The position numbers and the translations under genes were made by a program. The notes beneath the pieces were generated by a model. The model was not told the DNA's origin, searched no databases, and was given only the letters and a program-made list of their open reading frames with translations. A DNA stretch of 64,000 nucleotides, from NCBI RefSeq assembly GCF_030269305.1, contig NZ_BSTC01000001.1, positions 571,467-635,466 on the forward strand, in the 5' to 3' direction. This DNA is from Kineosporia sp. NBRC 101731 (lineage in GTDB: Bacteria > Actinomycetota > Actinomycetes > Actinomycetales > Kineosporiaceae). Shown one piece after another: positions 32,351 through 46,599 of the stretch (the stretch's first letter is position 1; each line of letters opens with the position of its first letter).

Positions 32351-33136
32351 TCAGAAGATCGTCGGCACATGGGCCGGGTCGGTGAGATCAGCGAGAGCAA
32401 CAACGATTGAACTGGCGCTTGCCGAAGTTGTCTTCGTCGTACTTCCGGTGGAAGTGGTACTCCCGGTGGAATCCGACGCCGGCGTGTTGGCGGCCGGGGC
32501 GCTGGGTTCCTCCGCCGGTGTGCTCGGTTCGTCCGTCGATGTCGATGTGGACGGCACCGGGCTCGTGGTGGTGGGCGACTTCGTCGGGGACTTGGTGGGC
32601 GACTTGGTCGGCGACTTCGTGGGTGACTTCGTCGGGGACTTGGTGGGCGACGTGGTCTTGCTCGTCGACTTCGTGGTCGAGGGCTTGGACGTCGACGAGG
32701 TCGACCTGGTCGACGACGGTTTGGTCGTCGACCCCGGGTTTGAGGCATCGCCGTTGTTCACGGCCGGGCGTGTGGTGGTCGTCACCACCCGGTTGCCCTG
32801 GGCGTCCGTAGTCGTGGTCACCACGACCTCGGACGGGGTGTCGTCGTCCGTCGCCGTACCCGACCGGGACGATGGGGAGCCGGTGGGCGTGGTCGCCGGC
32901 ACGTCCGTGGCGTCGAGTGCATCGTCCGTGGGGTCGCCGTCGGCCGCTGCGGGCAACTGGGTGCCGTCGGCGATGCTGGTCGCCGAGTCACGGGCCGGAG
33001 CGGTGGGCTGATGGAGCGGGCCACCGGTGACCGCCCAGGACGGCACGGCAATGACAACGGCTGCCGCAACGCCACCGACAATGGGGCGGCGTAGCAACAA
33101 GGGGCGTGGTGCCCGGTGTCTACCGACGTACCTCAT
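32351..33136 (-). CDS. Membrane-anchored Thr/Ser/Pro/Lys-rich protein
   Basis: 261 aa, unknown function. Basic N-terminus (MRYVGRHRAPRPLLLRRP), one hydrophobic helix (IVGGVAAAVVIAVPSWAV), then a long disordered region with VVVTTTTDAQGNRVVTTTTRPAV and a run of about six SPTK units, followed by Ser/Thr/Pro-rich sequence and a short hydrophobic C-terminus (IVVALADLTDPAHVPTIF). It looks like an exported wall-spanning or glycosylated stalk. ATG 33136; the upstream in-frame ATG 33205 is less likely. Confidence 0.65.
   Translation of the reverse strand: MRYVGRHRAPRPLLLRRPIVGGVAAAVVIAVPSWAVTGGPLHQPTAPARDSATSIADGTQLPAAADGDPTDDALDATDVPATTPTGSPSSRSGTATDDDTPSEVVVTTTTDAQGNRVVTTTTRPAVNNGDASNPGSTTKPSSTRSTSSTSKPSTTKSTSKTTSPTKSPTKSPTKSPTKSPTKSPTKSPTTTSPVPSTSTSTDEPSTPAEEPSAPAANTPASDSTGSTTSTGSTTKTTSASASSIVVALADLTDPAHVPTIF
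32570..32650. repeat. 12-bp minisatellite coding for SPTK repeats
   Basis: Six to seven units of about 12 bp (for example GTGGGCGACTTC, GTCGGGGACTTG) inside the Thr-rich gene; each unit encodes Ser-Pro-Thr-Lys on the minus strand. Likely length-variable. Confidence 0.75.
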
Positions 33137-33674
33137 GGCTCGCTCTCGTCTGCCGGATCTGCTGACCCCGTACGTTCCTGACCGGCCGGTCAGTGGTGTG
33201 CCCACCGGCGTCCGATTCGATACCTGAGGTGCACTATGCTCTATATCGAGCTATGCCCCGTCTGTGTTACTGACCGGACGTTAACAGGCCTATCGCCTCA
33301 GGGGCGATCCCGATGTGGACACTCGGGCATCCTGCCCCCGGCGCATCCTTCGGTACCGATCGCAGGCTTCCTGTCCTCGGCGATCAGTTCTAGCTTGCTG
33401 CAGCCGAGGCGTTCGTGGCAGCTGTTCGGGAGATTGATAAGGCCTGGATAGCCCTTATTTGAGCCAACGGGCCACATGGATGGCTTCGCTCACAGCGGGA
33501 ACAGCTCGTTCTGGTTTCGCCGGCCACCCAGACCGGCCACCCGGACCGGCCGCCAGACCGGCCACCCAGAGCCGGCCACCGAGGGCCGAGGCGATGAGAG
33601 CGCACACATCCGTACCCGGACATGCGTGAGGCCGGCCTCGGGGAAACCCGTGGCCGGCCGAGGACGAACGTGTC
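33137..33674. other. 538-bp region without a supported gene, with a short tandem repeat
   Basis: No convincing gene. From about 33520 to 33583 there are five degenerate 12-13-bp units (CCGGCCACCCAGA, CCGGCCACCCGGA, CCGGCCGCCAGA and so on). Between 33234 and 33265 an AT-richer stretch (CTATGCTCTATATCGAGC) may hold the promoter of the leftward exported protein. Confidence 0.4.
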
Positions 33675-35673: not shown

Positions 35674-37140
35674 ATGACCGATGCCGGGCCGGGCCGGGGC
35701 ACCGAGCCGGCCGGTGAGGGTTCAGCTTCTGAGGACCTGGTGAGTTCGGGGCCGCCGACCGGGGGTTCTTCGCCGGAACCCGGCCCCTGGGTGAGCGTCA
35801 CCGAGGCCGGCGCGGGTCACCCCTCCGAGTCGCCGCTCCACTGGGGCCGGCTGGTCGGAGGGGTGGTCGTGCTGGCCCTGCTGGTGTTCGTCGGGGTCGC
35901 GGCGGCCAGCGCGATCACGGCCCGTCGCGCGGCCGAGCGGGAGGCGGTGAACGACGCGCTGGCCATCACCGATGTGCTGGGCGAGTCGGTGATGCAGCCC
36001 GCGATCAGCGCCGACCTGTTCGACGCCGACACCGCGACCCGGCAGGCGGCGCTCGCCCAGCTGGACACCACGGTGCGCGAGCGGCTGCTCAGCGACACCA
36101 TCGTGCGCGTCAAGCTCTGGAAGCCCGACGGCACAATCGTCTACGCCGACGAGCCCCAGCTGATCGGCATGCGGTTCGCGCTCGACGACGAGGAGACGCA
36201 GGCGCTGGACGACCAGGTCACCAAGGCCGAGATCAGCGACCTGAGTGCACCGGAGAACCAGTTCGAGCGCGCCAACAACCGCAAGCTGCTCGAGGTCTAC
36301 CGGCCGGTCTGGGCCGCCGACGGCCAGACCCTGCTGTTCGAGACCTACTCCGCCTACGACGCCGTGACCGCCCGGACCGGTGACCTGACCCGTGGCTTCG
36401 GCGGCATCACCCTCACCAGCCTGCTGCTCATGCTGGTTGCCCAGGCCCCGCTGACCTGGGCCCTGGTGGCCCGGGTGCGGCGTTCACAGCGCGACCGGGA
36501 GGCCTACCTGGCCCGGGCCGTGCAGGCCTCGGACGACGAGCGCCGCCGGATCGCCGCCACCTTGCACGACGGCGCGGTGCAGGAACTGGTGGGCAGTGCG
36601 TTCCTGGTGGCGGGAGCGGCCGACCGGGCCCGGGCCGCGCACGACGACACGACGGCGGGGCAGCTGGATCTGGCGGCGGGATCGGTACGTTCGAGCATCG
36701 GTGGGCTCCGCTCGCTGCTGGTCGACATCTACCCGCCGAGCCTGCGCAACGCCGGGCTCCGGTCGGCGCTCACCGATCTCACCGCACCGTTGCGGGCCCA
36801 GGGCGTGGCCGTGGAGGTCGAGGTGCCGGACGAGCTGCAACTACCTCCCGAGAAGGAGGAGCTGGTGTTCCGAGTGGCCCAGGAATGCCTGCGCAACACC
36901 ATGAAACATGCGGACGCGGAGAGTGTGCGGGTCACGCTGGACGATCTCGAGGGAAGAACGGTGCTGGACATGATGGACGACGGGGTCGGGTTCGATCTCG
37001 ACACGGTGATGAAGCGACCGCAGGAGGGTCACTTCGGGGTCCGGCTGATCGCCGACCAGGCCGCCGCCGGCGGGGCCGAGCTCCTGGTGAGCACCGCTCC
37101 GGGGGCCGGAACCCAATGGCGACTGGAGATCTCGCGGTGA
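35674..37140 (+). CDS. NarL/DesK-type sensor histidine kinase
   Basis: 488 aa. An acidic Pro-rich N-terminus, helix 1 (LVGGVVVLALLVFVGVAAASAI), an extracytoplasmic sensor of about 160 residues, helix 2 (ITLTSLLLMLVAQAPLTWALV), then the dimerisation/phosphoacceptor block DERRRIAATLHDGAVQELVG (the His) and an ATPase domain with ECLRNTMKHADAE (N box) and DDGVGFD (G1 box). The ligand is unknown. The stop overlaps the response-regulator start by 4 bp. Confidence 0.93.
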   Translation: MTDAGPGRGTEPAGEGSASEDLVSSGPPTGGSSPEPGPWVSVTEAGAGHPSESPLHWGRLVGGVVVLALLVFVGVAAASAITARRAAEREAVNDALAITDVLGESVMQPAISADLFDADTATRQAALAQLDTTVRERLLSDTIVRVKLWKPDGTIVYADEPQLIGMRFALDDEETQALDDQVTKAEISDLSAPENQFERANNRKLLEVYRPVWAADGQTLLFETYSAYDAVTARTGDLTRGFGGITLTSLLLMLVAQAPLTWALVARVRRSQRDREAYLARAVQASDDERRRIAATLHDGAVQELVGSAFLVAGAADRARAAHDDTTAGQLDLAAGSVRSSIGGLRSLLVDIYPPSLRNAGLRSALTDLTAPLRAQGVAVEVEVPDELQLPPEKEELVFRVAQECLRNTMKHADAESVRVTLDDLEGRTVLDMMDDGVGFDLDTVMKRPQEGHFGVRLIADQAAAGGAELLVSTAPGAGTQWRLEISR

Positions 37141-37772
37141 CCGATGACGTCCTCAAGGTGCGGGTTCTGCTCGTCGACGACCACGCCCTGGTGCGGGCCG
37201 GGCTGAGCGCACTGCTCGACGCCCACCCCCAGATCACCGTGGTGGGTGAGGCCTCGGACGGTGAGCAGGCCGTCGAGCTCGCCCAGAACGCCGACCCCGA
37301 CGTGGTGCTCATGGACCTGTCGATGCCGGGTATGGACGGAGTGACGGCTACCCGCAAACTCCTGGCGCTGCGCCCGGAGATCCAGGTGCTCGTGCTGACC
37401 TCGTTCTCCGACCGCAACCGGGTGCGGGACGCGCTCGCCGCCGGCGCGATCGGTTACCTGCTCAAGGATTCCGATCCGCAGGACGTGGTGTCGGGGGTGC
37501 TGGCCGCCGCGAAGCAGGGCTCCCCGATCGACCCCCGGGTGGCCCGCACCCTGCTGACCGAGGGCGCGGTCGGCCCGCCGCCACCGCTGTCACCGCGGGA
37601 GACCGACGTGCTGCTCCTGGTGGCCAAGGGCATGGCCAACAAACAGATCGGCCGTGCCCTCGGCATCAGTGAGCGCACGGTCAAGGTGCACCTGGGCAAC
37701 GTGTTCCGCCGCATCGGGGTGCAGGACCGGACCAGCGCCGCGCTCTGGGCGAAGGAGAACCTACAGACCTGA
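37137..37772 (+). CDS. NarL/FixJ-family response regulator
   Basis: 211 aa. Receiver domain: RVLLVDDHALVRAGL, phospho-acceptor Asp in VVLMDLSMPGMDG, Lys in YLLKDSDP; then a LuxR-type helix-turn-helix (LSPRETDVLLLVAKGMANKQIGRAL, ISERTVKVHLGNVFRRIGV). GTG start within a GTGA overlap with the kinase. Its targets may include the exported protein upstream. The stop overlaps the convergent peptidase gene by 12 bp. Confidence 0.95.
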   Translation: MTDDVLKVRVLLVDDHALVRAGLSALLDAHPQITVVGEASDGEQAVELAQNADPDVVLMDLSMPGMDGVTATRKLLALRPEIQVLVLTSFSDRNRVRDALAAGAIGYLLKDSDPQDVVSGVLAAAKQGSPIDPRVARTLLTEGAVGPPPPLSPRETDVLLLVAKGMANKQIGRALGISERTVKVHLGNVFRRIGVQDRTSAALWAKENLQT

Positions 37773-39653
37773 GCGGTCGACGCCCAGGTGCTCGCAGGCC
37801 CAGTCCACGGCGGTGCGCACGAACGTCACCCGGTTCTTCGTGTCGAGCAGGTCGTGCCCCTCCCCCGAGAACTTCAGGAACCGGTGCGGCACGCCCTGTT
37901 CGGTCAGGGCCGCGACCACCTGCCCGGCCTCCTCCACCGGCACGTTGGTGTCGTCCGCGCCGTGCACCACCAGCAGGGGAGCGGTGAGCCGGCCGATCCG
38001 GTGGATCGGCGAGAACTCCCGCAGCACGGCGCTGTCCGTGACCGGGTGGCCGTACTTCGAGACCGCGGCCGTGGCGATCCACGGTTCGGTGTGCTCGTAG
38101 AACGTCTCCAGGTCGGCCATGCCGCAGACGTCGATACCGACGCTGAACAGGTCGGGGAACCAGGTCAGGCCGGCCAGCGTGAGGTACCCGCCGTACGACC
38201 GGCCCATCAGCCCGATCCGCCCCGGTGCGCAGACGCCCGAGGTGACCAGGTGTTCCACGGCGGCCGCGACGTCTTCGATCGACCCGAGCCGCCGCCCGAC
38301 GTCGTCGGCCGTCTCGAACGTCCGCCCGTATCCCGACGATCCCCGCACGTTCGGCGCGAAGACCGCGATGCCCTCGGAGACCAGCGACTGGAAGAGCGAG
38401 TTGTAGACCGGGCGCTCCTGCGACTCCGGGCCACCGTGCAGGTGCACCATCGTCGGCCAGGGCCCCGGCGAGTCCGGGGCATCGGGCCGGTAGAGCCAGC
38501 CGCTGAGTCCGAGCCCGTCCCGGCCCGGGAAGCGGCGCAGGACCGGCCGGGACAGATCGGCGGTGTCCACCGTGGCGTAGCTGGAACCCCGGGAACCGCG
38601 CAGCTCACCGTCGGCCCGGCTGGTCAGGGGCAGCGTGGCCCCGGTGGTCAGGTCGATGGTCCAGGCGCCGCGCGGGTCGGACCAGTCCTCGGCCGTGAGC
38701 ATCAGTGACTTACCGCCCGCGAAGAGCTGGCAGTCGTCCACCACATCGCGGGGAAGCGGCCCGATCTCGTCCTCGTGCAGGGAGACCAGATCGAGCAGGC
38801 TCACCGCGTTGGTGCCGCCGAACTCGTTCCACAGCAGCACGGCCGTGGTGCCGTCGGGTGAGAGCGTGACCCGTTGCAGCTCGGCATCTTCGCGTCGGGC
38901 CAGGAGCTCGGCCGCACCAGCCGTACCAGTCGCATCACTGAGTAGATCCAGATCCACCCGCACCAGCGCCGCCAGGTCGTGGTCGGCCTCGCTGCGGGCG
39001 TACAGGTACCGGCCGTCGGGCGAGAGACAGCCCTGATCGGCGAATCCGCCGCGCTCACCGGTGACCGAGGTGTCCACCGGACGCTCGTGGGAGCCGTCCA
39101 GGTCGCACACGGCCAGCGTGCGGTAGCTGCGGGGCCCGCGGCGCAGCAGTGCCCGGCCCGCGGCCACGTCGAGCAGCGAGATCAGTGGTCCGGAAGCGAT
39201 CACGGTGCGCTCGCCGGCCAGGGGCGAGACGAGAACGGCGGAGGCGACCGCACCGACCGACTCGGTGACCATGAGACGTCCGTCGGGCGTCCACCCGTGC
39301 CGTGACCCCGCACCCAGCCACGCCGTCGCGCCCGGTCCGCCCGAGATCATCCGCAGGCCCGAGCCGTCGGGCCGCACCACCCAGATCTCGTCCCGGGAGC
39401 TGCCGGCCCCGGCCACCAGACAGGCCAGCCAGACCGCGTCGGGCGACCAGCTGATCGAGAGCACCCGGTCCAGGCTGATGCCCGGATTGACCGCCTGCCC
39501 GGTCTGTGAGTCCTTGATCCAGATCGCCGGCGCGCCACCCCGGTCGGAGATGAACGCGATCCGCGTCCCGTCCGGGTCGGGGGTGGGCGACCAGCTGCCG
39601 TAGACGTCCTCGGGGACCAGCTCGGACGACTGGTCGCCGGGCTGGACGTTCAC
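37761..39653 (-). CDS. S9-family (prolyl oligopeptidase-type) serine peptidase
   Basis: 630 aa. An N-terminal beta-propeller of TolB/WD40-like repeats (RIAFISDRGGAPAIWIKD, ISWSPDAVWLACLVA, GCLSPDGRYLYARS) is followed by an alpha/beta-hydrolase: GLMGRSYGGYLTLAG (Ser), HGADDTNVPV (Asp) and GEGHDLLD (His). No signal peptide, so probably cytoplasmic. The start GTG overlaps the AsnO-like gene stop by 4 bp, so it is translationally coupled to the amidotransferase: it may cleave the product of that pathway. Confidence 0.9.
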   Translation of the reverse strand: MNVQPGDQSSELVPEDVYGSWSPTPDPDGTRIAFISDRGGAPAIWIKDSQTGQAVNPGISLDRVLSISWSPDAVWLACLVAGAGSSRDEIWVVRPDGSGLRMISGGPGATAWLGAGSRHGWTPDGRLMVTESVGAVASAVLVSPLAGERTVIASGPLISLLDVAAGRALLRRGPRSYRTLAVCDLDGSHERPVDTSVTGERGGFADQGCLSPDGRYLYARSEADHDLAALVRVDLDLLSDATGTAGAAELLARREDAELQRVTLSPDGTTAVLLWNEFGGTNAVSLLDLVSLHEDEIGPLPRDVVDDCQLFAGGKSLMLTAEDWSDPRGAWTIDLTTGATLPLTSRADGELRGSRGSSYATVDTADLSRPVLRRFPGRDGLGLSGWLYRPDAPDSPGPWPTMVHLHGGPESQERPVYNSLFQSLVSEGIAVFAPNVRGSSGYGRTFETADDVGRRLGSIEDVAAAVEHLVTSGVCAPGRIGLMGRSYGGYLTLAGLTWFPDLFSVGIDVCGMADLETFYEHTEPWIATAAVSKYGHPVTDSAVLREFSPIHRIGRLTAPLLVVHGADDTNVPVEEAGQVVAALTEQGVPHRFLKFSGEGHDLLDTKNRVTFVRTAVDWACEHLGVDRSGL

Positions 39654-41422
39654 AGACCGATCCGCTGCAGCCAGAGCTCGAGCAGGCCGAGCTGCCAGAC
39701 CACGTTGGCGCCGATCGTGGTACGTGCCGTGTTGGGGTCGGCGAGCAGAGTGTTCACGACTTCCGGACGGTACAGGGCCCGGTCGGTCGCTGTCCTGGAC
39801 AGCAGCGCGTCGCGCACCCGGTCGAGGATCTGGCCGTCCAGGTGCCGCACCCCGGGGACCGGGAAATAGCCCTTCGTACGGTCGATCACGGCATCCGGGA
39901 CAACTCCTCGGGCGGCTTCTTTCAAGACCCCCTTGCCGCCGTGGGCGAGTTTCAGTTCCGGCGGGCAGAGGGCGGCGAGTTCGACCAGCTCGTGGTCGAG
40001 GAACGGCACGCGGGCCTCGAGGCCCCAGGCCATGGTCATGTTGTCGACGCGTTTCACCGGGTCGTCGACCAGCATCACCCGGCTGTCGATGCGCAGCGCG
40101 GCGTCCAGCGTAGTCTGCGCCCCCGGCGCGGCGAAGTGGTCGCGCACGTACGACAGGCTGGGGTCACCGGACACGTGCCACTGCGGGTTCAGCAGGCCGG
40201 CCACGAGGTGGCCGGGGCGGTCGAAGAACACATCGGCATAGGCCTGGGCGGCTTTCGAACGGGGGACGCCCGCCAGCGGCGGGTACCAGTCGTACCCGGC
40301 GAACACCTCGTCCGCCCCCTGGCCCGACTGCACCACCGTGATGCTCTTGGACACCTCTTCGGAGAGCAGGTAGAAGGCCACGCAGTCGTGACTGACCATC
40401 GGCTCGCTCATCGCCCCGATCGCCCCGTCCAGCCCGCTGGCCAGCCGGTCGTCCGGGATCATGATCTTGTGGTGGTCGGTGCCGAACTCCTTGGCCATCA
40501 GGTCGGAGTACTCGAACTCGTCACCGCTCTCACCGGCCACCGAGTTGAAACCGATGCTGAACGTGGCCAGCCCGCTCTGCCCGGCCTTCGCCAGCAGCGA
40601 CACGATGAGGCTGGAGTCCAGCCCGCCCGACAGCAGGACGCCCACCGGCACGTCGGAGACCATGCGCCGGCGCACGGCCGCCTCCAGAGCGGCCAGGGTT
40701 CGCTCTCGCCATTCGCCGGGGGACAACGAGAGTTCCCGGGTGGCGGGGGGATTCCAGTAGACCGACTCGGTCGCCGAGCCGTCCGGCTCGATCACGCGCA
40801 CGGTGGCGGGCGGCAATTTGCGGACGCCGGTCAGCATCGTCCGCGGGGCGGGCACCACGGAGTGCCACGAGAGGTAGTGGTGCAGGGCCACCGCGTCGAT
40901 GCTCGTGTCCACATCGCCGGCCGCCAGCAGTGCGGGAAGGGTCGACGCGAACCGGATGCGCTGCGGGGTCTCGCTCAGGTAGAGCGGCTTGATACCCAGC
41001 CGGTCGCGGGCCATCACCAGGCGGCCGCTGTCGAGCTCGTGGATGACGAACGCGAACATGCCCAGGAAACGGTCCACACAGGCCGTGCCCCAGTGGTGGT
41101 AAGCCGCCAGGATCACCTCGGTGTCGGAGGTGGAACGGAACCGGTAGCCGTGCCCCTGGAGCTCGCGCCGCAGCTCGTGATGGTTGTAGATGCAGCCGTT
41201 GAACACCAGGGCCAGCCGCAGCTCCTCGTCGACCATCGGCTGCGACCCGGCCTCGGACAGGTCGATGATCTTCAGCCGATGGTGCAGGAACGCGACCGGC
41301 CCGTGTGACCAGGTGCCCTTCGAGTCCGGACCCCGGCGCTCCAGACACGGCGACATCCTCGCCACCGCGTCCCGGTCTCCTCGGGCGCCGTCCAGCCGGA
41401 ACTCGCCACCCAAGCCACACAT
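39650..41422 (-). CDS. AsnO-like glutamine-dependent amidotransferase (NAGGN type)
   Basis: 590 aa, asparagine-synthetase fold. The N-terminal glutaminase starts with the catalytic Cys (MCGLGGEFRLDGARGD), RRGPDSKGTW, FNGCIYNHHELRRELQ; the synthetase domain has VGVLLSGGLDSSLIVSLLAKAG (PP-loop) and SGQGADEVFAGYDWYPPL. Blocks such as ALHHYLSWHSVVPAPRTMLTGVRKLPPATVRVIEPDG and MSEPMVSHDCVAFYLLSEEVSK are those of N-acetylglutaminylglutamine amidotransferase (osmolyte NAGGN), not house-keeping AsnB. GGGAGG 8 nt before ATG 41422. Instead of the usual GNAT/ATP-grasp synthetase the neighbour is a GCS2/ATP-grasp fusion. Confidence 0.9.
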   Translation of the reverse strand: MCGLGGEFRLDGARGDRDAVARMSPCLERRGPDSKGTWSHGPVAFLHHRLKIIDLSEAGSQPMVDEELRLALVFNGCIYNHHELRRELQGHGYRFRSTSDTEVILAAYHHWGTACVDRFLGMFAFVIHELDSGRLVMARDRLGIKPLYLSETPQRIRFASTLPALLAAGDVDTSIDAVALHHYLSWHSVVPAPRTMLTGVRKLPPATVRVIEPDGSATESVYWNPPATRELSLSPGEWRERTLAALEAAVRRRMVSDVPVGVLLSGGLDSSLIVSLLAKAGQSGLATFSIGFNSVAGESGDEFEYSDLMAKEFGTDHHKIMIPDDRLASGLDGAIGAMSEPMVSHDCVAFYLLSEEVSKSITVVQSGQGADEVFAGYDWYPPLAGVPRSKAAQAYADVFFDRPGHLVAGLLNPQWHVSGDPSLSYVRDHFAAPGAQTTLDAALRIDSRVMLVDDPVKRVDNMTMAWGLEARVPFLDHELVELAALCPPELKLAHGGKGVLKEAARGVVPDAVIDRTKGYFPVPGVRHLDGQILDRVRDALLSRTATDRALYRPEVVNTLLADPNTARTTIGANVVWQLGLLELWLQRIGL

Positions 41423-41501
41423 GCACGAACCTCCCGGACCACGTCACCGAATGCCGTTCTGAGTTGACACGGGCGACGGGGTGGTCCGCAACCCGGGAAG
41501 G

Positions 41502-44060
41502 TCAGGTCAGCAGCCAGGTGTCCTTCGACCCACCACCGCGTGAGCTGTTCACCACCATGCTGCCCGCCGGTGCCACCCGGCTCAGCGCGGTCGGCGCCAC
41601 CAGCAGCTCCGGGGCGCCCGAGTTCAGCACGAAGGCCCGCAGATCGACGTGATGAGCCGTGAAACCGTCATCGGTGAAGCAGGGCATGCTCGACAGCTGC
41701 ACCATCTCCTGGGCGATCCACCGGTGCGGCGCGGTGAGCAGCTGCTTGCGGTGTGCCTCGATCTCCTGCTCGCTCGCCATCGGGCCGATCAGCACCCCCT
41801 CGCCGCCGTATCCGTCCACCGGCTTGAGCACCAGTTCGCCGAGCCGGTTCAGCACCTGCTCGGCCTGGTCGGGGATGCCGCACAGATAGGTCGGCACACT
41901 GTTCAGCAGCGGCTTCTCGGAGAGGTAGTACTCGATCATCTGCGGCACGAACGTGTAGATGGCCTTGTCGTCGCCCACCCCGTTGCCGGGAGCGTTGGCC
42001 AGCACCACGCGGGCAGCACCGACGGCCGAGAGCAGGGACGGGCCGAGCGGACGGCCGTCGGCACCCGCCGAGTGCAGCAGGGCCTCCTCGTCCACCCGCA
42101 GGTAAAGCACGTCCACCCGCTTACGACCGCCCTCCCGCAGCAGGTAGACGGTGTCGTTCTCGATCAGCAGGTCGCCGATCACGGCCACCGGCACGCCCAT
42201 CTCGTTGGCCAGCATGCGGTGCTCGAACCAGGCCGAACCCTCCGGGCCCTCGCTCAGCAGCACCACCTGCGGGCTGTCGGGGGCGCTCGGCAGGGCCGCG
42301 GCCTCCAGCGTCTCGCGCAGCAGGGCCGGTACCCGGTTCGGGTCGAGCATGCCCGCGGGCCGAGGCAGATCACCCATCACCGCGTCGGTCAGGCGCCGGT
42401 TCTGCACCGAGTAGCCCAGGCCGGAGGGCACCCGCAGATTGTCTTCCAGCAAGAACCACTCACCGGTGTGCGAGTCCTTCACCAGGTCCATACCGCTGAT
42501 GTGGGCACGCACCTTCTGCCGGTGCACCAGCGCCCCGGTGCCCCGCAGCCCGGGCGCCGAGTCGATCACCCAGCTCGGCACCACGCCGTCCTTGACAATG
42601 GCGCGATCGCCGTAGACGTCGTGCAGGAAGGCGTCGAGTGCCGTCGCCCGCTGCCGCAGCCCGAGACCGAGGGCGGCCCATTCGTCGGCCTGCACCACGC
42701 GGGGCACCAGGTCGACCGGGAACAGCCGGGCACTGGCCCGGCCCGGCACGCCGAACGTCACGCCGTGGGAGCGCTGCTCCTCGTCGCGCCGCCGCTCGCG
42801 CTGCCGCATCCCGGCCGGGCCGAGATCTTCCAGCACGGCGAACAGGTCGGCGTAGGGGGCCGTCGGGCCGTCCTGACCGAGCGCCTCGTCGCCTTCGAGC
42901 TGATACAGGGGCAGGGCCGCCGGATGCCCGGCCTCGCCCGGCACGGTCGGTGCGGCCTGGTCCGGGTCGGTGCGGCGTACCAGCATGTCGACCACGTCGG
43001 CGAAGCGCTCGCGGCGTTCGTAGATCGCGCGCTGCTCGGCCGCCGAGCTGCCACGCACCAGGGCCCGTTCGGTCAGCTCGCTGACCAGCTCCCAGTCACC
43101 GGCCTCCTCCAGCTGCGGGCGCAGGTCTTCCAGCAGCGCCTGCACCGCCTGAGCGGCCGGCACCGGCCGTGACGAGCGCGGCAGGTCGAGCAGATCGCCC
43201 TCCAGACCGGACCGGGCGGCCCGCCAGATGGCGCTGCGCAGCAGGGGGGAGAGCCAGCGCCGGCTCGGCTCGCCCGCGGTGATCGCGGCGTGCTCCTGGC
43301 GCACCATCGCCCGGAACAGCCCGGCCAGCAGCACCACGGTGTCGAGGTCGGGGCAGGCGTCGGTGAGGCGCAGTTCGAGGGTGGGGAGGTGCGACGAGGG
43401 CCGCACGTCGAAGTAGATCATCCCGGCGTCGCTGATCGTGCCGGACTCGACCAGGTCGGCGATCAGCTGGTCGTGCTCCACCGCCGTCGCGACCTCACCG
43501 CTCAGCCCGGCGGTGGGCCAGCGCGACCACAGCAGAGACCGGTTGCTGGCGTAGCCGGAGTCTTCACCCATCCAGAACGGGGACGACGCCGACAGCGCGA
43601 GCAGCACCGGCAGCCGGGGCGTGACCCGTTGCGCGATCTGGACGGCCAGGTCGCGGTCGGTGACCTGCACGTGCACCTGGGCACCGCAGATCAGCTGCTC
43701 GCGCACCAGCGTCTGGTACTCGTCGAGCATGCGCTCGTAGCGCTGGTTCGGTGTCACCGACAGCTGCAGCGGGTCGACCAGCGGCACCGTGCCCGCGGCC
43801 ACCACGCCCAGCCCCATCGGGGTGGCCACCTCGACCAGCTTGCGTCGCGTGTCGATCAGAGCCTGGCGCAGGTCGGCCAGGGTGTTGCAGACCGGGGTGT
43901 TGCTCTCCACGACACTGCGCTGCAACTCGTCGGAGTAGGTCTCGGCGGGTAGATGCTCCAGCAGCTTCGGGGCCTGAGCCACCAGCTCACGGGAGAGCAG
44001 ATCCACTACGTGGAACTCTTCCTCGACACCGAGACTGGTCAATTCACCGGGACCGGTCAC
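41502..44060 (-). CDS. Carboxylate-amine ligase (GCS2) fused to circularly permuted ATP-grasp
   Basis: 852 aa, two ligases in one chain. Residues about 5-375 are a GCS2/YbdK-type glutamate-cysteine-ligase-like domain (LTSLGVEEEFHVVD, QLICGAQVHVQVTD, FDVRPSSHLPTLELRLTDACPDLDT). Residues about 400-845 are a circularly permuted type 2 ATP-grasp (DUF404/DUF407): ISGMDLVKDSHTGEWFLLEDNLRVPSGLGYSVQNR, VVLLSEGPEGSAWFEHRMLA, LVLKPVDGYGGEGVLIGP, RWIAQEMVQLSS and HHVDLRAFVL. Both make amide bonds from carboxylates and ATP. GTG start at 44060. The amidotransferase starts 79 bp downstream. Substrates unknown. Confidence 0.9.
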   Translation of the reverse strand: MTGPGELTSLGVEEEFHVVDLLSRELVAQAPKLLEHLPAETYSDELQRSVVESNTPVCNTLADLRQALIDTRRKLVEVATPMGLGVVAAGTVPLVDPLQLSVTPNQRYERMLDEYQTLVREQLICGAQVHVQVTDRDLAVQIAQRVTPRLPVLLALSASSPFWMGEDSGYASNRSLLWSRWPTAGLSGEVATAVEHDQLIADLVESGTISDAGMIYFDVRPSSHLPTLELRLTDACPDLDTVVLLAGLFRAMVRQEHAAITAGEPSRRWLSPLLRSAIWRAARSGLEGDLLDLPRSSRPVPAAQAVQALLEDLRPQLEEAGDWELVSELTERALVRGSSAAEQRAIYERRERFADVVDMLVRRTDPDQAAPTVPGEAGHPAALPLYQLEGDEALGQDGPTAPYADLFAVLEDLGPAGMRQRERRRDEEQRSHGVTFGVPGRASARLFPVDLVPRVVQADEWAALGLGLRQRATALDAFLHDVYGDRAIVKDGVVPSWVIDSAPGLRGTGALVHRQKVRAHISGMDLVKDSHTGEWFLLEDNLRVPSGLGYSVQNRRLTDAVMGDLPRPAGMLDPNRVPALLRETLEAAALPSAPDSPQVVLLSEGPEGSAWFEHRMLANEMGVPVAVIGDLLIENDTVYLLREGGRKRVDVLYLRVDEEALLHSAGADGRPLGPSLLSAVGAARVVLANAPGNGVGDDKAIYTFVPQMIEYYLSEKPLLNSVPTYLCGIPDQAEQVLNRLGELVLKPVDGYGGEGVLIGPMASEQEIEAHRKQLLTAPHRWIAQEMVQLSSMPCFTDDGFTAHHVDLRAFVLNSGAPELLVAPTALSRVAPAGSMVVNSSRGGGSKDTWLLT

Positions 44061-44206
44061 GTCTGGTCGCCACCTCGCCTGCCGTTCGAACCCGCCGTGA
44101 CGGACGACGCGGCGGTGGGGCGGCTGAACGCCTCACGCGTCCGTCTCACCGTCATTGGAGGTTAGGCGAGAAGCATGACCTGCACATTTCGAGCGGGTTG
44201 CGCGGT

Positions 44207-45211
44207 CTACGACATCAGGGTCTTCAGGACCCCGGCCTCCTTCTCCGGATCGAGCCCGGGCTGCGGCCGGTCCGGACGCTGCGGAGCCTGGCCCCCGATG
44301 GACTGCAACCAGGCCCAGGTGTCACCGACCGTCTCGGCCACGGGACGGTTGTACAGCCCGGTGGCCAGGGCCTTTGCCGGATTGCCGAGGTGCAGGGCGG
44401 CGTGCTCCGGGCCCGGCGGGATCCACACCGGCAGCTCGGTCCAGGGTTCGATGCCCGCCTGATCGATCAGCTCCGGCGGGGCCCAGCGCAGCTCGGCGTC
44501 CGAGCCCGTGACCTCGACACAGGTGCGCAGGAATTCACCCATGGAGGTGTGCCCGGGCGGGCTGATCATGTCGAACGCCCCGGACAGTCCCTGCTCCGCC
44601 GCCCCGACCGTCCAGATCGCCAGGTCACGCGCGTCCACGTACTGCAGCGGCAGGTCGTCCGGCCCGGGCGCGAGCACGTCCCCTCCGCGTGCCACCCGCC
44701 CCAGCCACCAGGGCAGCCGGCCGATGTTCTCCCACGGCCCGAGGATCAGCCCGGCCCGCACGTGCACGTACCGATCGCCGAAACCTCGCTCCACCGCGAT
44801 CTCCGAGCCCCGTTTCGCCTCGCCGTACGGCACCTCGGCACCGTCCCGCCCGGCCTCGGGGTCACCCGCCAGCAGCGGCGCGGACTCGTCCGCGCCGACC
44901 GGTGCCGGGAACTCGTACACCGAGCGGGTGGAAACGAAAAGATACCGTCCGACGCGGTTTTTCAGCGCCTCGACGCTGTCGCTGACCACGTAGGAGTCCG
45001 AGCTCCAGGTGTCGATCACGACGTCCCACTCGCCGGTCAGGGCATCGAGCCCGCCGGGCTGCCGTCGATCGCCGTGCCGGGCGGTCACCTGCGGTTGCTC
45101 CGGGGTCTTGGTGCCCCGGTTCAGCGTGGTCACCTCATGTCCGCGCCCGACCGCCTCGTCCACGAGGGCCCGCCCCACGAACTCCGTCCCACCCAGCACG
45201 AGAATCCTCAT
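44207..45211 (-). CDS. NAD-dependent epimerase/reductase (extended SDR)
   Basis: 334 aa. Rossmann motif MRILVLGGTEFVGRALVDEAV, then VIDTWSSDSYVVSDSVEAL, YLFVSTRSVYEF, PYGEAKRGSEIAVER (Tyr/Lys pair in YGEAK) and LQYVDARDLAIW. It fits the atypical reductase-like branch of the epimerase family; the substrate is unknown. ATG 45211. It is transcribed in the same direction as the ligase fusion 146 bp downstream, but I see no strong reason to place it in that pathway. Confidence 0.85.
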   Translation of the reverse strand: MRILVLGGTEFVGRALVDEAVGRGHEVTTLNRGTKTPEQPQVTARHGDRRQPGGLDALTGEWDVVIDTWSSDSYVVSDSVEALKNRVGRYLFVSTRSVYEFPAPVGADESAPLLAGDPEAGRDGAEVPYGEAKRGSEIAVERGFGDRYVHVRAGLILGPWENIGRLPWWLGRVARGGDVLAPGPDDLPLQYVDARDLAIWTVGAAEQGLSGAFDMISPPGHTSMGEFLRTCVEVTGSDAELRWAPPELIDQAGIEPWTELPVWIPPGPEHAALHLGNPAKALATGLYNRPVAETVGDTWAWLQSIGGQAPQRPDRPQPGLDPEKEAGVLKTLMS

Positions 45212-45297
45212 GCGCCCACCCTGCCGGTCCGAACCGGTGTGATCCAAGCGTTTCTGCGGTGAAGAGAATCAAATGGAGGACGAGGTCGGTGGGGGTT

Positions 45298-45365
45298 CGG
45301 GGAACGTTTGCATGATCACGAACGAAGTGAGGGGGGCCTTGCCGTGATCATGCAAACGTTCCCCG
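45298..45365. repeat. Palindromic intergenic element, copy E (inverted order)
   Basis: A perfect 23-bp inverted repeat, 45298-45320 with 45343-45365. Unlike the other copies, the G/C-run is outside (CGGGGAACG...) and GATCACG faces the 22-bp centre, so the element is turned inside out. It ends 13 bp from the stop of the leftward DUF499-like gene. Confidence 0.85.
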
Positions 45366-45378
45366 ACGATCTTGAAAC

Positions 45379-46599
45379 TCAGCTCGCCGAGCGCTCGCGA
45401 TCCCCGGTCGGGCGTCCTTCGTCGTCCAATCCTCGACCCGCAGCCATCAGGGCTTCGGGGGTGAGGGTCTCGCCCTGGGCCAGGCGGGGCAGGGGTGGGA
45501 CGGGGTCTTCGTGGTCGAGGTGGTCGATGGTGCGCAGCTGGTCCAGGGCCGCGCGGGCGGTGTCGCTGTGCCGCTGCTCCACGGCGCGGTCGGGCCGCAC
45601 CACCAGCGTCGACTCCCGCATGACCTCCGGCGGCCGGTCGTCGCCGGGCAGACGCAGCCCGAGGTATGACGCCTTGCGCTGGTCGTAGCCATCAGCCAGG
45701 GCGAAACCCTGGTACTGCCAGTCCAGTTCGTCGGCGATCGCGGCGACCAGGCCGGCCTCCAGCACCGAGCGGTCGCGCAGGCGGGGCAGGTAGGGCAGCG
45801 AGGTGTAGAGCTCCCACAGCTCGCCCACACTCACGTGGCCGGTGCGCCAGCGGGAGGTGAGTGGCCCGTTCAGATCGCTGCGGATGGCGTGGTCGTCGCG
45901 GGAGGTGACGAGCTCGCCCTCGGCGCGCAGGGTGAGCGCGGCCCGTTCGGCCAGGGTGCCGCCCGCGCCCTCGGCGGTCAGGACCCGTAGCGTCAGCGGC
46001 TCGTCCTCCGACTGCTGGCCCGGAATCAGCAGCCAGAAGTAGGTCTCCGGCAGCAGGTGATCGATATCGTTCTCGGCTGCGTCCTTCCAGATCAGGGCCT
46101 CCCGGCCGGCCTCTTCGGGCAGGCCCAGGGCATGGGCCATGGCGGCCACGTGCGACCAGGCGAGGAACTCGCGGACGCCGGCCTCCAGCATCGGGTAGTG
46201 GTGGGCGTCGGCAGCCAGCGCGATCACCGCGTTGCGGTGCCGGCGGGGCTGGGCGCCTCGCGTGGAGGTGAGCCGGAGCGTCTGCTCGGCGGCCGCCGAG
46301 GTGAGCACCGGGTCGGCCAGCGATCCGTGCACTTCGGCGGGATCGTGCAGGTGGCGCGGATGGAGGATCGCGAGTTGCACCTCGGCCTCGTCCGGGAGCC
46401 CATTGGTCGTGTCGACCACGTGCACCGCCTCGAATCCGGTGTCGTCGGCCCCGGTCGTGCAGTGCTGCTCCAGACGGCGCACGATCTCCGCCTGCAGCCG
46501 TTCGATGCTCAGGCTGTCCGCGAACTCATGGGCCACGCGGTCGATCTCAGCCGTCGGGTCGTACCCGGACCTTCGCGTGAGGTGGGGCAACGGGCTCAT
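45379..46599 (-). CDS. DUF499-like C-terminal fragment protein (no ATPase part)
   Basis: 406 aa. The sequence RRHRNAVIALAADAHHYPMLEAGVREFLAW, TYFWLLIPGQ, GELVTSRDDHAIRSDLN and VSVGELWELYTSLPYLPRLRDRSVLEAGL resembles the C-terminal half of the large (about 1000 aa) DUF499 ATPases, which are often listed with anti-phage gene sets (DUF1156 methylase, DUF3780, helicase). The N-terminal Walker ATPase is absent. It nevertheless has a clean start (AAGGAG 7 nt before ATG 46599) and no frameshift, so it could be a working domain or a trimmed relic. Assignment is from memory of family motifs. Confidence 0.6.
   Translation of the reverse strand: MSPLPHLTRRSGYDPTAEIDRVAHEFADSLSIERLQAEIVRRLEQHCTTGADDTGFEAVHVVDTTNGLPDEAEVQLAILHPRHLHDPAEVHGSLADPVLTSAAAEQTLRLTSTRGAQPRRHRNAVIALAADAHHYPMLEAGVREFLAWSHVAAMAHALGLPEEAGREALIWKDAAENDIDHLLPETYFWLLIPGQQSEDEPLTLRVLTAEGAGGTLAERAALTLRAEGELVTSRDDHAIRSDLNGPLTSRWRTGHVSVGELWELYTSLPYLPRLRDRSVLEAGLVAAIADELDWQYQGFALADGYDQRKASYLGLRLPGDDRPPEVMRESTLVVRPDRAVEQRHSDTARAALDQLRTIDHLDHEDPVPPLPRLAQGETLTPEALMAAGRGLDDEGRPTGDRERSAS

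Follow-up and report, generated by a model that had tools for sequence, protein, structure and literature searches.

The stretch of DNA analysed here (64,000 nucleotides of contig NZ_BSTC01000001.1 from Kineosporia sp. NBRC 101731, called the window below) carries three open reading frames (ORFs) on the minus strand, spanning positions 37761-44060, that encode a fusion of two ligases, an AsnO-type amidotransferase and an S9 family peptidase. A preliminary description of this DNA had read them as an operon in which the start of the S9 gene overlaps the stop of the amidotransferase gene by 4 bp, and the ORF coordinates confirm both the span and the overlap (Table 1). The 852-residue chain of the first gene joins two different ligases, as had been proposed: GCS2 (PF04107) matches residues 10-286 with 196.5 bits (cut-off 21), and the circularly permuted (CP) ATP-grasp family CP_ATPgrasp_2 (PF14403) matches residues 453-830 with 398.9 bits (cut-off 32). 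TIGR02050 scores 278.3 bits on the same protein (cut-off 176.4), which identifies a YbdK-type carboxylate-amine ligase. The amidotransferase is AsnO-like, again as described, since TIGR03104 (‘N-acetylglutaminylglutamine amidotransferase’) scores 924.5 bits against a cut-off of 570.1, and it is the one copy over this cut-off in its genome. The host assembly comprises 8.26 Mb in 88 contigs, and the nearest named relative is Kineosporia rhizophila, with identities of 88% for the fusion, 87% for AsnO and 78% for the S9 peptidase.

Table 1. Window positions of the three genes, the two halves of the fusion and the junctions between the genes.
Feature	Position	Strand	Basis or detail
GCS2/CP ATP-grasp fusion, P0001, 852 aa	41502-44060	-	Pfam, family models, relatives of known structure
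GCS2 (YbdK-like carboxylate-amine ligase) half, residues ~10-370	42951-44033	-	PF04107, TIGR02050, 1r8g
CP ATP-grasp half, residues ~391-851	41508-42890	-	PF14403, 3n6x, eukaryotic glutathione synthetases
Intergenic gap, fusion to AsnO, 79 bp	41423-41501	-	GGGAGG 7 nt ahead of AsnO ATG
AsnO-type amidotransferase, P0002, 590 aa	39650-41422	-	TIGR03104; glutamine-hydrolysing, Cys2, SGGLDSS loop
AsnO stop / S9 start overlap, 4 bp	39650-39653	-	ORF coordinates
S9 family peptidase, P0003, 630 aa	37761-39653	-	PF00326 + PF07676: beta-propeller repeat + alpha/beta hydrolase

Relatives of known structure cover nearly the whole fusion. YbdK (1r8g) spans residues 8-341 and 3n6x spans residues 391-851, leaving no space for a GNAT domain. 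An AlphaFold2 model, calculated from an alignment of 50 sequences picked to spread over genera (alignment A2), has a mean predicted local distance difference test score (pLDDT) of 87.2 and a predicted TM-score (pTM) of 0.63. Foldseek matched this model first to 3n6x and YbdK (TM-score 0.85 for 1r8g, by target length) and more distantly to eukaryotic glutathione synthetases, plant glutamate-cysteine ligase and GshF (3ln7); several of the matched glutathione synthetase structures were solved with gamma-Glu-Cys or homoglutathione bound. No GNAT stands among the listed fold matches (50 of the 85 with E ≤ 0.001), and we rejected a hidden Ngg-like GNAT domain because both halves are filled by the YbdK and 3n6x relatives, so the absence of this domain noted earlier holds. 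In an alignment of 79 fusions (L107 and L136 omitted, the latter having no clean single frame across the match), GVEEEFH (11-17), H130, R220, E229 and R231 of the GCS2 half and E539-D540-N541, K699, K746, D806-R808 and N838 of the CP ATP-grasp half are each kept in at least 78 sequences. E539-D540-N541 resembles the ExN motif that serves magnesium in glutathione synthetases. The fold matches and the near-invariant residues in both halves lead us to read the fusion as a candidate two-step gamma-glutamyl ligase. The EgtA model scores 22.3 bits against a cut-off of 370.8, and the GshAB models TIGR01435 and NF002688 (PRK02471) are absent from the 12 families listed for the fusion (E ≤ 0.01).

In the pathway to N-acetylglutaminylglutamine amide (NAGGN), the place beside AsnO belongs to the dipeptide synthetase Ngg (TIGR03103), and the fusion had been proposed to take this place. 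The genome carries no Ngg over the cut-off (best match 35 bits against 569), and Ngg was found at none of the 80 fusion loci described below. We then drew 396 genomes from the phylum, 46 of which have an AsnO over the TIGR03104 cut-off. Ngg matches (E ≤ 1e-20) occur in 32 of the 46 (30 over the cut-off, two fragmented or partial) and adjoin AsnO by coordinates in 31, the Ngg of G344 lying on another contig. Beside the AsnO of the 14 genomes without Ngg we found the fusion in four (G000, G086, G308, G386), GCS2 alone in five (G023, G128, G193, G246, G121), a CP-ATP-grasp gene accompanied by a distinct GCS2-like gene in three (G130, G237, G379), CP-ATP-grasp alone in G076 and no ligase in G298; the GCS2-like gene is Pfam-confirmed in G130 only (48.8 bits) and is assigned by a similar translation in G379 and a tblastn match in G237. 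When 49 fusion genomes out of the 80 loci, spread over genera, were searched as a whole, 45 had no Ngg match at E ≤ 1e-60, and four had an Ngg over the cut-off. These counts support the replacement of Ngg by the fusion at the position beside AsnO. A family of loci (f19), which we guess to be Rubrobacter-like, has the same kinds of parts unfused, with GCS2-like, CP-ATP-grasp, AsnO and DUF1028 proteins each encoded by a gene of its own. Pairs of AsnO and S9 genes with no adjacent ligase gene were seen on a plasmid of Streptomyces sp. NBC_01276 (L165:5001-9091), where AsnO is annotated N-acetylglutaminylglutamine amidotransferase, and in G298 (L066:6786-10615), and no AsnO was found beside the GCS2 of a Mycobacterium branderi plasmid.

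The conservation of the cassette was examined by scanning the fusion alignment against a collection with one genome per species (84,980 species), which gave 282 relatives, of which the best 80 were kept (L078, L155 and G317 are one contig, and L155 and G317 were excluded from the count). The match starts at query residue 1-9 and ends at 849-851 in each of them. Of the 80 loci, 71 have a co-directional AsnO gene downstream of the fusion, 60 have S9 (some truncated by the contig end) and 57 have both, showing that the three genes co-occur across genomes as the earlier operon reading implied. The gap between fusion and AsnO has a median of 47 bp over 70 measurable loci and does not exceed 300 bp in 59 of these; it reaches 0.9-2.6 kb in six Pseudonocardia loci, some of which contain inserted genes. 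We rejected a chance neighbourhood on the basis of this recurrence. In gene calls from a simple script, which missed some genes including S9 genes later found by tblastn, the largest further gene family recurs in 11 loci. Both S9 and the EgtC paralogue described below are missing from six loci that do have AsnO; the contig ends soon past AsnO in three (L083, L105, L153), and both genes are absent from the other three (L127, L130, L147). One locus (L152) comes from a Myxococcales metagenome-assembled genome (MAG), for which transfer and mixing are both possible. Among the 396 phylum genomes the fusion occurs in five, four with AsnO beside it and one (G317) without. The cassette is thus real and conserved, a variant of the AsnO peptide-amide systems. 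Three loci hold the fusion and S9 without AsnO, in Motilibacter (L081:10540-12486), a Corynebacterium MAG (L150:2885-5227) and an Actinomycetota MAG (L078:10739-11560); their genomes have no TIGR03104 match over the cut-off, and they may represent a two-gene version without amidation. A gene for an MscS-type mechanosensitive channel follows AsnO in L130 (12494-13729), and another precedes a canonical asnO-ngg cassette in Azospirillum (L166), which is a weak hint at osmotic regulation.

The hydrolase next to AsnO changes together with the ligase. The earlier claim that NAGGN cassettes usually come with a peptidase stands in that a peptidase is linked to them, but the canonical one is an M42 peptidase (TIGR03106) and not S9. 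At E ≤ 1e-40, M42 was found in 26 of the 32 Ngg genomes and in none of the 14 non-Ngg AsnO genomes (Fisher P 1.6e-7, relatedness ignored), and the Kineosporia genome has no match at this threshold. M42 is not adjacent to AsnO in some Ngg genomes and is not a strict feature of NAGGN, since six of the 32 lack it. Conversely, 9 of the 14 non-Ngg genomes but 0 of the 32 Ngg genomes have an S9 gene like that of the window next to AsnO (Fisher P 1.8e-6, relatedness ignored); away from this position, S9 genes are frequent in genomes with and without Ngg. The hydrolase type therefore goes with the cassette type, in line with the proposal that the operon carries its own peptidase. PF00326 scores 148.5 bits on this peptidase, and its nearest solved relative is an amino acyl peptidase (5l8s), followed by two S9 peptidases and acylamino-acid-releasing enzymes, whose substrates are N-blocked short peptides. 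Eight of the 80 fusion loci, all without S9, carry a paralogue of EgtC as the next gene instead. All eight paralogues score slightly below the TIGR03442 cut-off (200.2-217.1 bits against 218.65), and each of their genomes encodes another EgtC elsewhere that exceeds the cut-off (in one genome joined from two pieces). The one paralogue we examined keeps Cys2 and has EgtC structures as its nearest solved relatives. EgtC takes off a gamma-glutamyl group in ergothioneine synthesis, which fits the chemistry of GCS2. The hydrolase slot of the f19 loci is filled by DUF1028 in L061 (Pfam) and L063, with a tblastn match in L064.

The AsnO sequences were compared in a tree of 120 rows made with a quick method. 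Two duplicate pairs were retained (L014/L053 and L052/L067), L033 (stop) and L046, L062, L158 and L159 (weak or partial) were excluded, same-genome duplicates and the contig-end row L157 were removed from the trees and the position comparison, and L065 was also left out of the latter. The 75 fusion-linked rows form one group (support 96) next to the Streptomyces-like rows (95) and apart from the Ngg-linked rows. We call G023, G128, G193 and G246 Streptomyces-like partly because their AsnOs group with the named Streptomyces plasmid AsnO (support 100). Also inside the fusion-linked group are L066 and L156, which have no adjacent ligase, and the GCS2-linked AsnO of Nonomuraea (L164). The f19 AsnOs are placed among the Ngg-linked rows, though the support is weak (89); this placement suggests that the partner of AsnO changed a second time, independently. 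The four fusion genomes with Ngg are the mycobacteria L106, L137 and L145 and the Actinomycetota MAG L130, whose AsnO groups with those of the three mycobacteria. Every Ngg in these genomes has its own adjacent AsnO that falls with the Ngg-linked AsnOs, and their fusion-linked AsnOs fall in the fusion group. Only L145 comes from an isolate, Mycolicibacterium stellerae; the three remaining genomes were assembled from metagenomes and may be mixed. If NAGGN were the product of both systems, it would be difficult to see why a single genome should keep two ligases, each with an amidotransferase of its own.

From these data we propose, with somewhat better than even confidence, that the operon serves the synthesis, capping and recycling of a short amidated gamma-glutamyl peptide. 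In the GCS2 half, glutamate or one of its derivatives would be linked through its gamma-carboxylate to an amino acid X, and the CP ATP-grasp half, resembling the eukaryotic type of glutathione synthetase, would add a further residue Y, so that the fusion acts like a bifunctional glutathione synthetase. AsnO would then use glutamine as nitrogen donor to amidate the C-terminal carboxylate, giving a product of the type gamma-Glu-X-Y-NH2, which the S9 peptidase, or the EgtC-like hydrolase in its stead, would degrade or recycle. The Streptomyces-like genomes, in which the ATP-grasp half is missing, would make gamma-Glu-X-NH2, suggesting that a dipeptide amide can suffice there. Such a product might serve as an intracellular solute or a nitrogen-rich metabolite. 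The preliminary description had expected an amidated product other than NAGGN, and the change of hydrolase and the four genomes with both systems favour this view; the product probably differs from NAGGN.

Several observations weigh against this proposal. The similarity of the model to glutathione synthetases is remote (13-15% identity, rmsd 6-8, TM-score ~0.6 by target length), and its pTM is only 0.63. The family model NF010041 (‘glutamate--cysteine ligase’), which does score above its cut-off (356.9 against 332), describes a broad subfamily, and all listed equivalog models are below their cut-offs. S9 is itself a broad family, and the AsnOs of the eight EgtC-paralogue loci form one clade (support 99), so these loci count as a single exchange and not as eight. 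The GCS2-AsnO-S9 arrangement of the Streptomyces-like genomes does without the ATP-grasp half altogether. AsnO is absent beside the fusion in nine of the 80 loci, six of which (L109, L121, L128, L133, L140, L143; L133 is a short contig) lack S9 as well; a TIGR03104 match over the cut-off occurs elsewhere in the genomes of L133 and L143 and nowhere in the other seven, so amidation is not obligatory. Finally, at 85% conservation in each group, just 4 of the 590 AsnO positions separate the Ngg-linked (31 rows) from the fusion-linked proteins (75 rows), which points to a similar acceptor and thus argues against a very different product; judged by these positions, the acceptor of AsnO may even be the same as in NAGGN synthesis.

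The last point also speaks for the alternative that the fusion has replaced Ngg without being homologous to it and that the product is still NAGGN or a near relative, acetylated by an unlinked acetyltransferase or made from N-acetylglutamate, an explanation we regard as unlikely. It gains from the TIGR03104 score, which lies far above the cut-off, and from a separate GNAT gene in 11 of the 80 loci, all in Frankiaceae, which stands behind S9 in nine and behind AsnO in two (for example, L094:15720-16265) and makes acetylation possible there. In a Frankia genome paper a locus of this kind is interpreted as asnO-ngg, although the identity of its ‘Ngg’ is <15% (PMC5563000, in the sections available). 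However, no relative of the Frankiaceae GNAT was found in the other 69 loci at E ≤ 1e-4, and a search with it against the Kineosporia genome gave three weak matches, the best with 29.5 bits; we therefore rejected a linked GNAT as a general part of the cassette. The absence of M42 from all 14 non-Ngg genomes at the threshold used, though shared by six Ngg genomes, the two ligase-AsnO pairs of the four genomes above and the EgtC-like hydrolase, which points to a gamma-glutamyl bond, also speak against NAGGN as the product.

A slightly less likely alternative is that only one ligase half, GCS2, matters for the conserved pathway, that the product is a dipeptide amide and that the other half is regulatory or acts on a side-product. 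The four Streptomyces-like genomes have no CP-ATP-grasp match at E ≤ 1e-20, GCS2 directly adjoins AsnO in G121, and the Nonomuraea AsnO sits in the fusion group with GCS2 as its sole ligase neighbour, all of which agree with this idea. The catalytic-looking residues are near-invariant in both halves across the 79 aligned fusions, however, and G076 keeps a CP-ATP-grasp gene with no GCS2-like gene beside AsnO. That the ligase modifies a macromolecule (a protein or a peptidoglycan peptide) which AsnO amidates is very improbable: relatives of the CP-ATP-grasp half are separate genes in many other bacteria (we know of no tested substrate for them), such a role has been put forward for other CP-ATP-grasp proteins whose genes accompany those for alpha-E and transglutaminase, and AsnB-family enzymes can amidate cell-wall residues, but the folds of the fusion match small-molecule ligases, and no conserved protein substrate was seen in the gene calls, in which no further gene family extends beyond 11 loci.

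Within the operon, GGGAGG in the gap between fusion and AsnO is a plausible, putative ribosome-binding site of AsnO, and a sequence scan found no terminator-like site in this gap. The scan did give one such site within the fusion gene (42475-42458, minus strand) and two more on the plus strand, three in total against 0.9 in shuffles, and the site in the fusion gene was taken for chance. No promoter-like site was found by the scan, which says little for an actinobacterium, and Rfam gave 0 matches at the gathering threshold in 37000-46000, so that a riboswitch or any other RNA of a known Rfam family close to the operon was rejected. Genes for a histidine kinase and a LuxR-type response regulator (35674-37772, plus strand) are convergent to the operon, the ends of the response regulator and S9 genes overlapping by 12 bp, and a low-complexity Thr/Ser/Pro-rich ORF with SPTK repeats lies at 32351-33205 on the minus strand.

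Among the literature matches listed, none describes the GCS2-CP-ATP-grasp-AsnO cassette, most subscription papers lying outside the search, and nothing useful was found on gamma-glutamylglutamine as an osmolyte or on NAGGN in the fusion-bearing genera. A 2009 amidoligase survey by Iyer and colleagues may mention this gene neighbourhood, so we make no claim that the cassette is undescribed. As far as the available parts of the following papers go, NAGGN is made by Micromonospora provocatoris, as shown by nuclear magnetic resonance and mass spectrometry, with asnO and ngg named (PMC8146288), and Micromonospora NAGGN clusters have been reported from antiSMASH (PMC11537254, PMC12915310). In the proteome of F. 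alni, polyethylene glycol raises two proteins assigned to NAGGN synthesis, whose locus tags could not be matched to the cassette (PMC5768760). The accessible portion of PMC5884947 merely names NAGGN in a list, and that of PMC2922099 contains no mention of GCS2. The Frankia paper assigns NAGGN synthesis to ‘asnO-ngg’ and, in its available sections, puts a dipeptidase both immediately downstream of ngg and between asnO and ngg (PMC5563000); its low-identity ‘Ngg’ is probably the separate Frankiaceae GNAT.

A broader idea, which we hold tentatively and consider rather doubtful, is that this is a widespread actinobacterial pathway to gamma-Glu-X-Y-NH2 whose ligase arose independently of GshF and which is filed in databases as NAGGN because just AsnO is recognised. 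If the proposal of an amidated gamma-glutamyl peptide is right, some actinobacterial NAGGN predictions made from AsnO alone concern another product, the published Frankia locus being a probable case, and Frankia, Pseudonocardia, Streptosporangiaceae and Kineosporia, together with some mycobacteria, would contain a small class of metabolites that has so far gone unrecognised. The exchange of ligase and hydrolase around a constant amidotransferase offers a direct route to test AsnO recognition, and the four genomes with both systems offer a natural comparison.

Compared with known systems, the cassette shares with the NAGGN cassette (asnO-ngg-M42; TIGR03104/TIGR03103/TIGR03106) an AsnO with an ATP-dependent peptide ligase next to it and a hydrolase linked to it. 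It differs in that the ligase is GCS2-CP-ATP-grasp without GNAT rather than GNAT-ATP-grasp, the hydrolase is S9, EgtC-like or DUF1028 rather than M42, and AsnO belongs to a separate tree group. The Frankia ‘asnO-dipeptidase-ngg’ locus is probably the same cassette, as Frankia loci show the order AsnO, peptidase, GNAT; it was published as NAGGN genes, and the available sections do not mention a ligase fusion upstream (PMC5563000). With the ergothioneine genes egtA and egtC the cassette has in common a GCS2-family ligase and, in eight loci, an EgtC paralogue just under the EgtC cut-off, whereas the fusion falls far below the EgtA cut-off and those eight genomes carry a separate EgtC elsewhere. 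Like GshF (GshAB), which is among its fold matches, the fusion places a glutamate ligase domain before an ATP-grasp domain in one chain and would be expected to yield a gamma-glutamyl tripeptide, but its halves belong to the GCS2/YbdK and CP ATP-grasp families and are followed by an amidotransferase and a peptidase.

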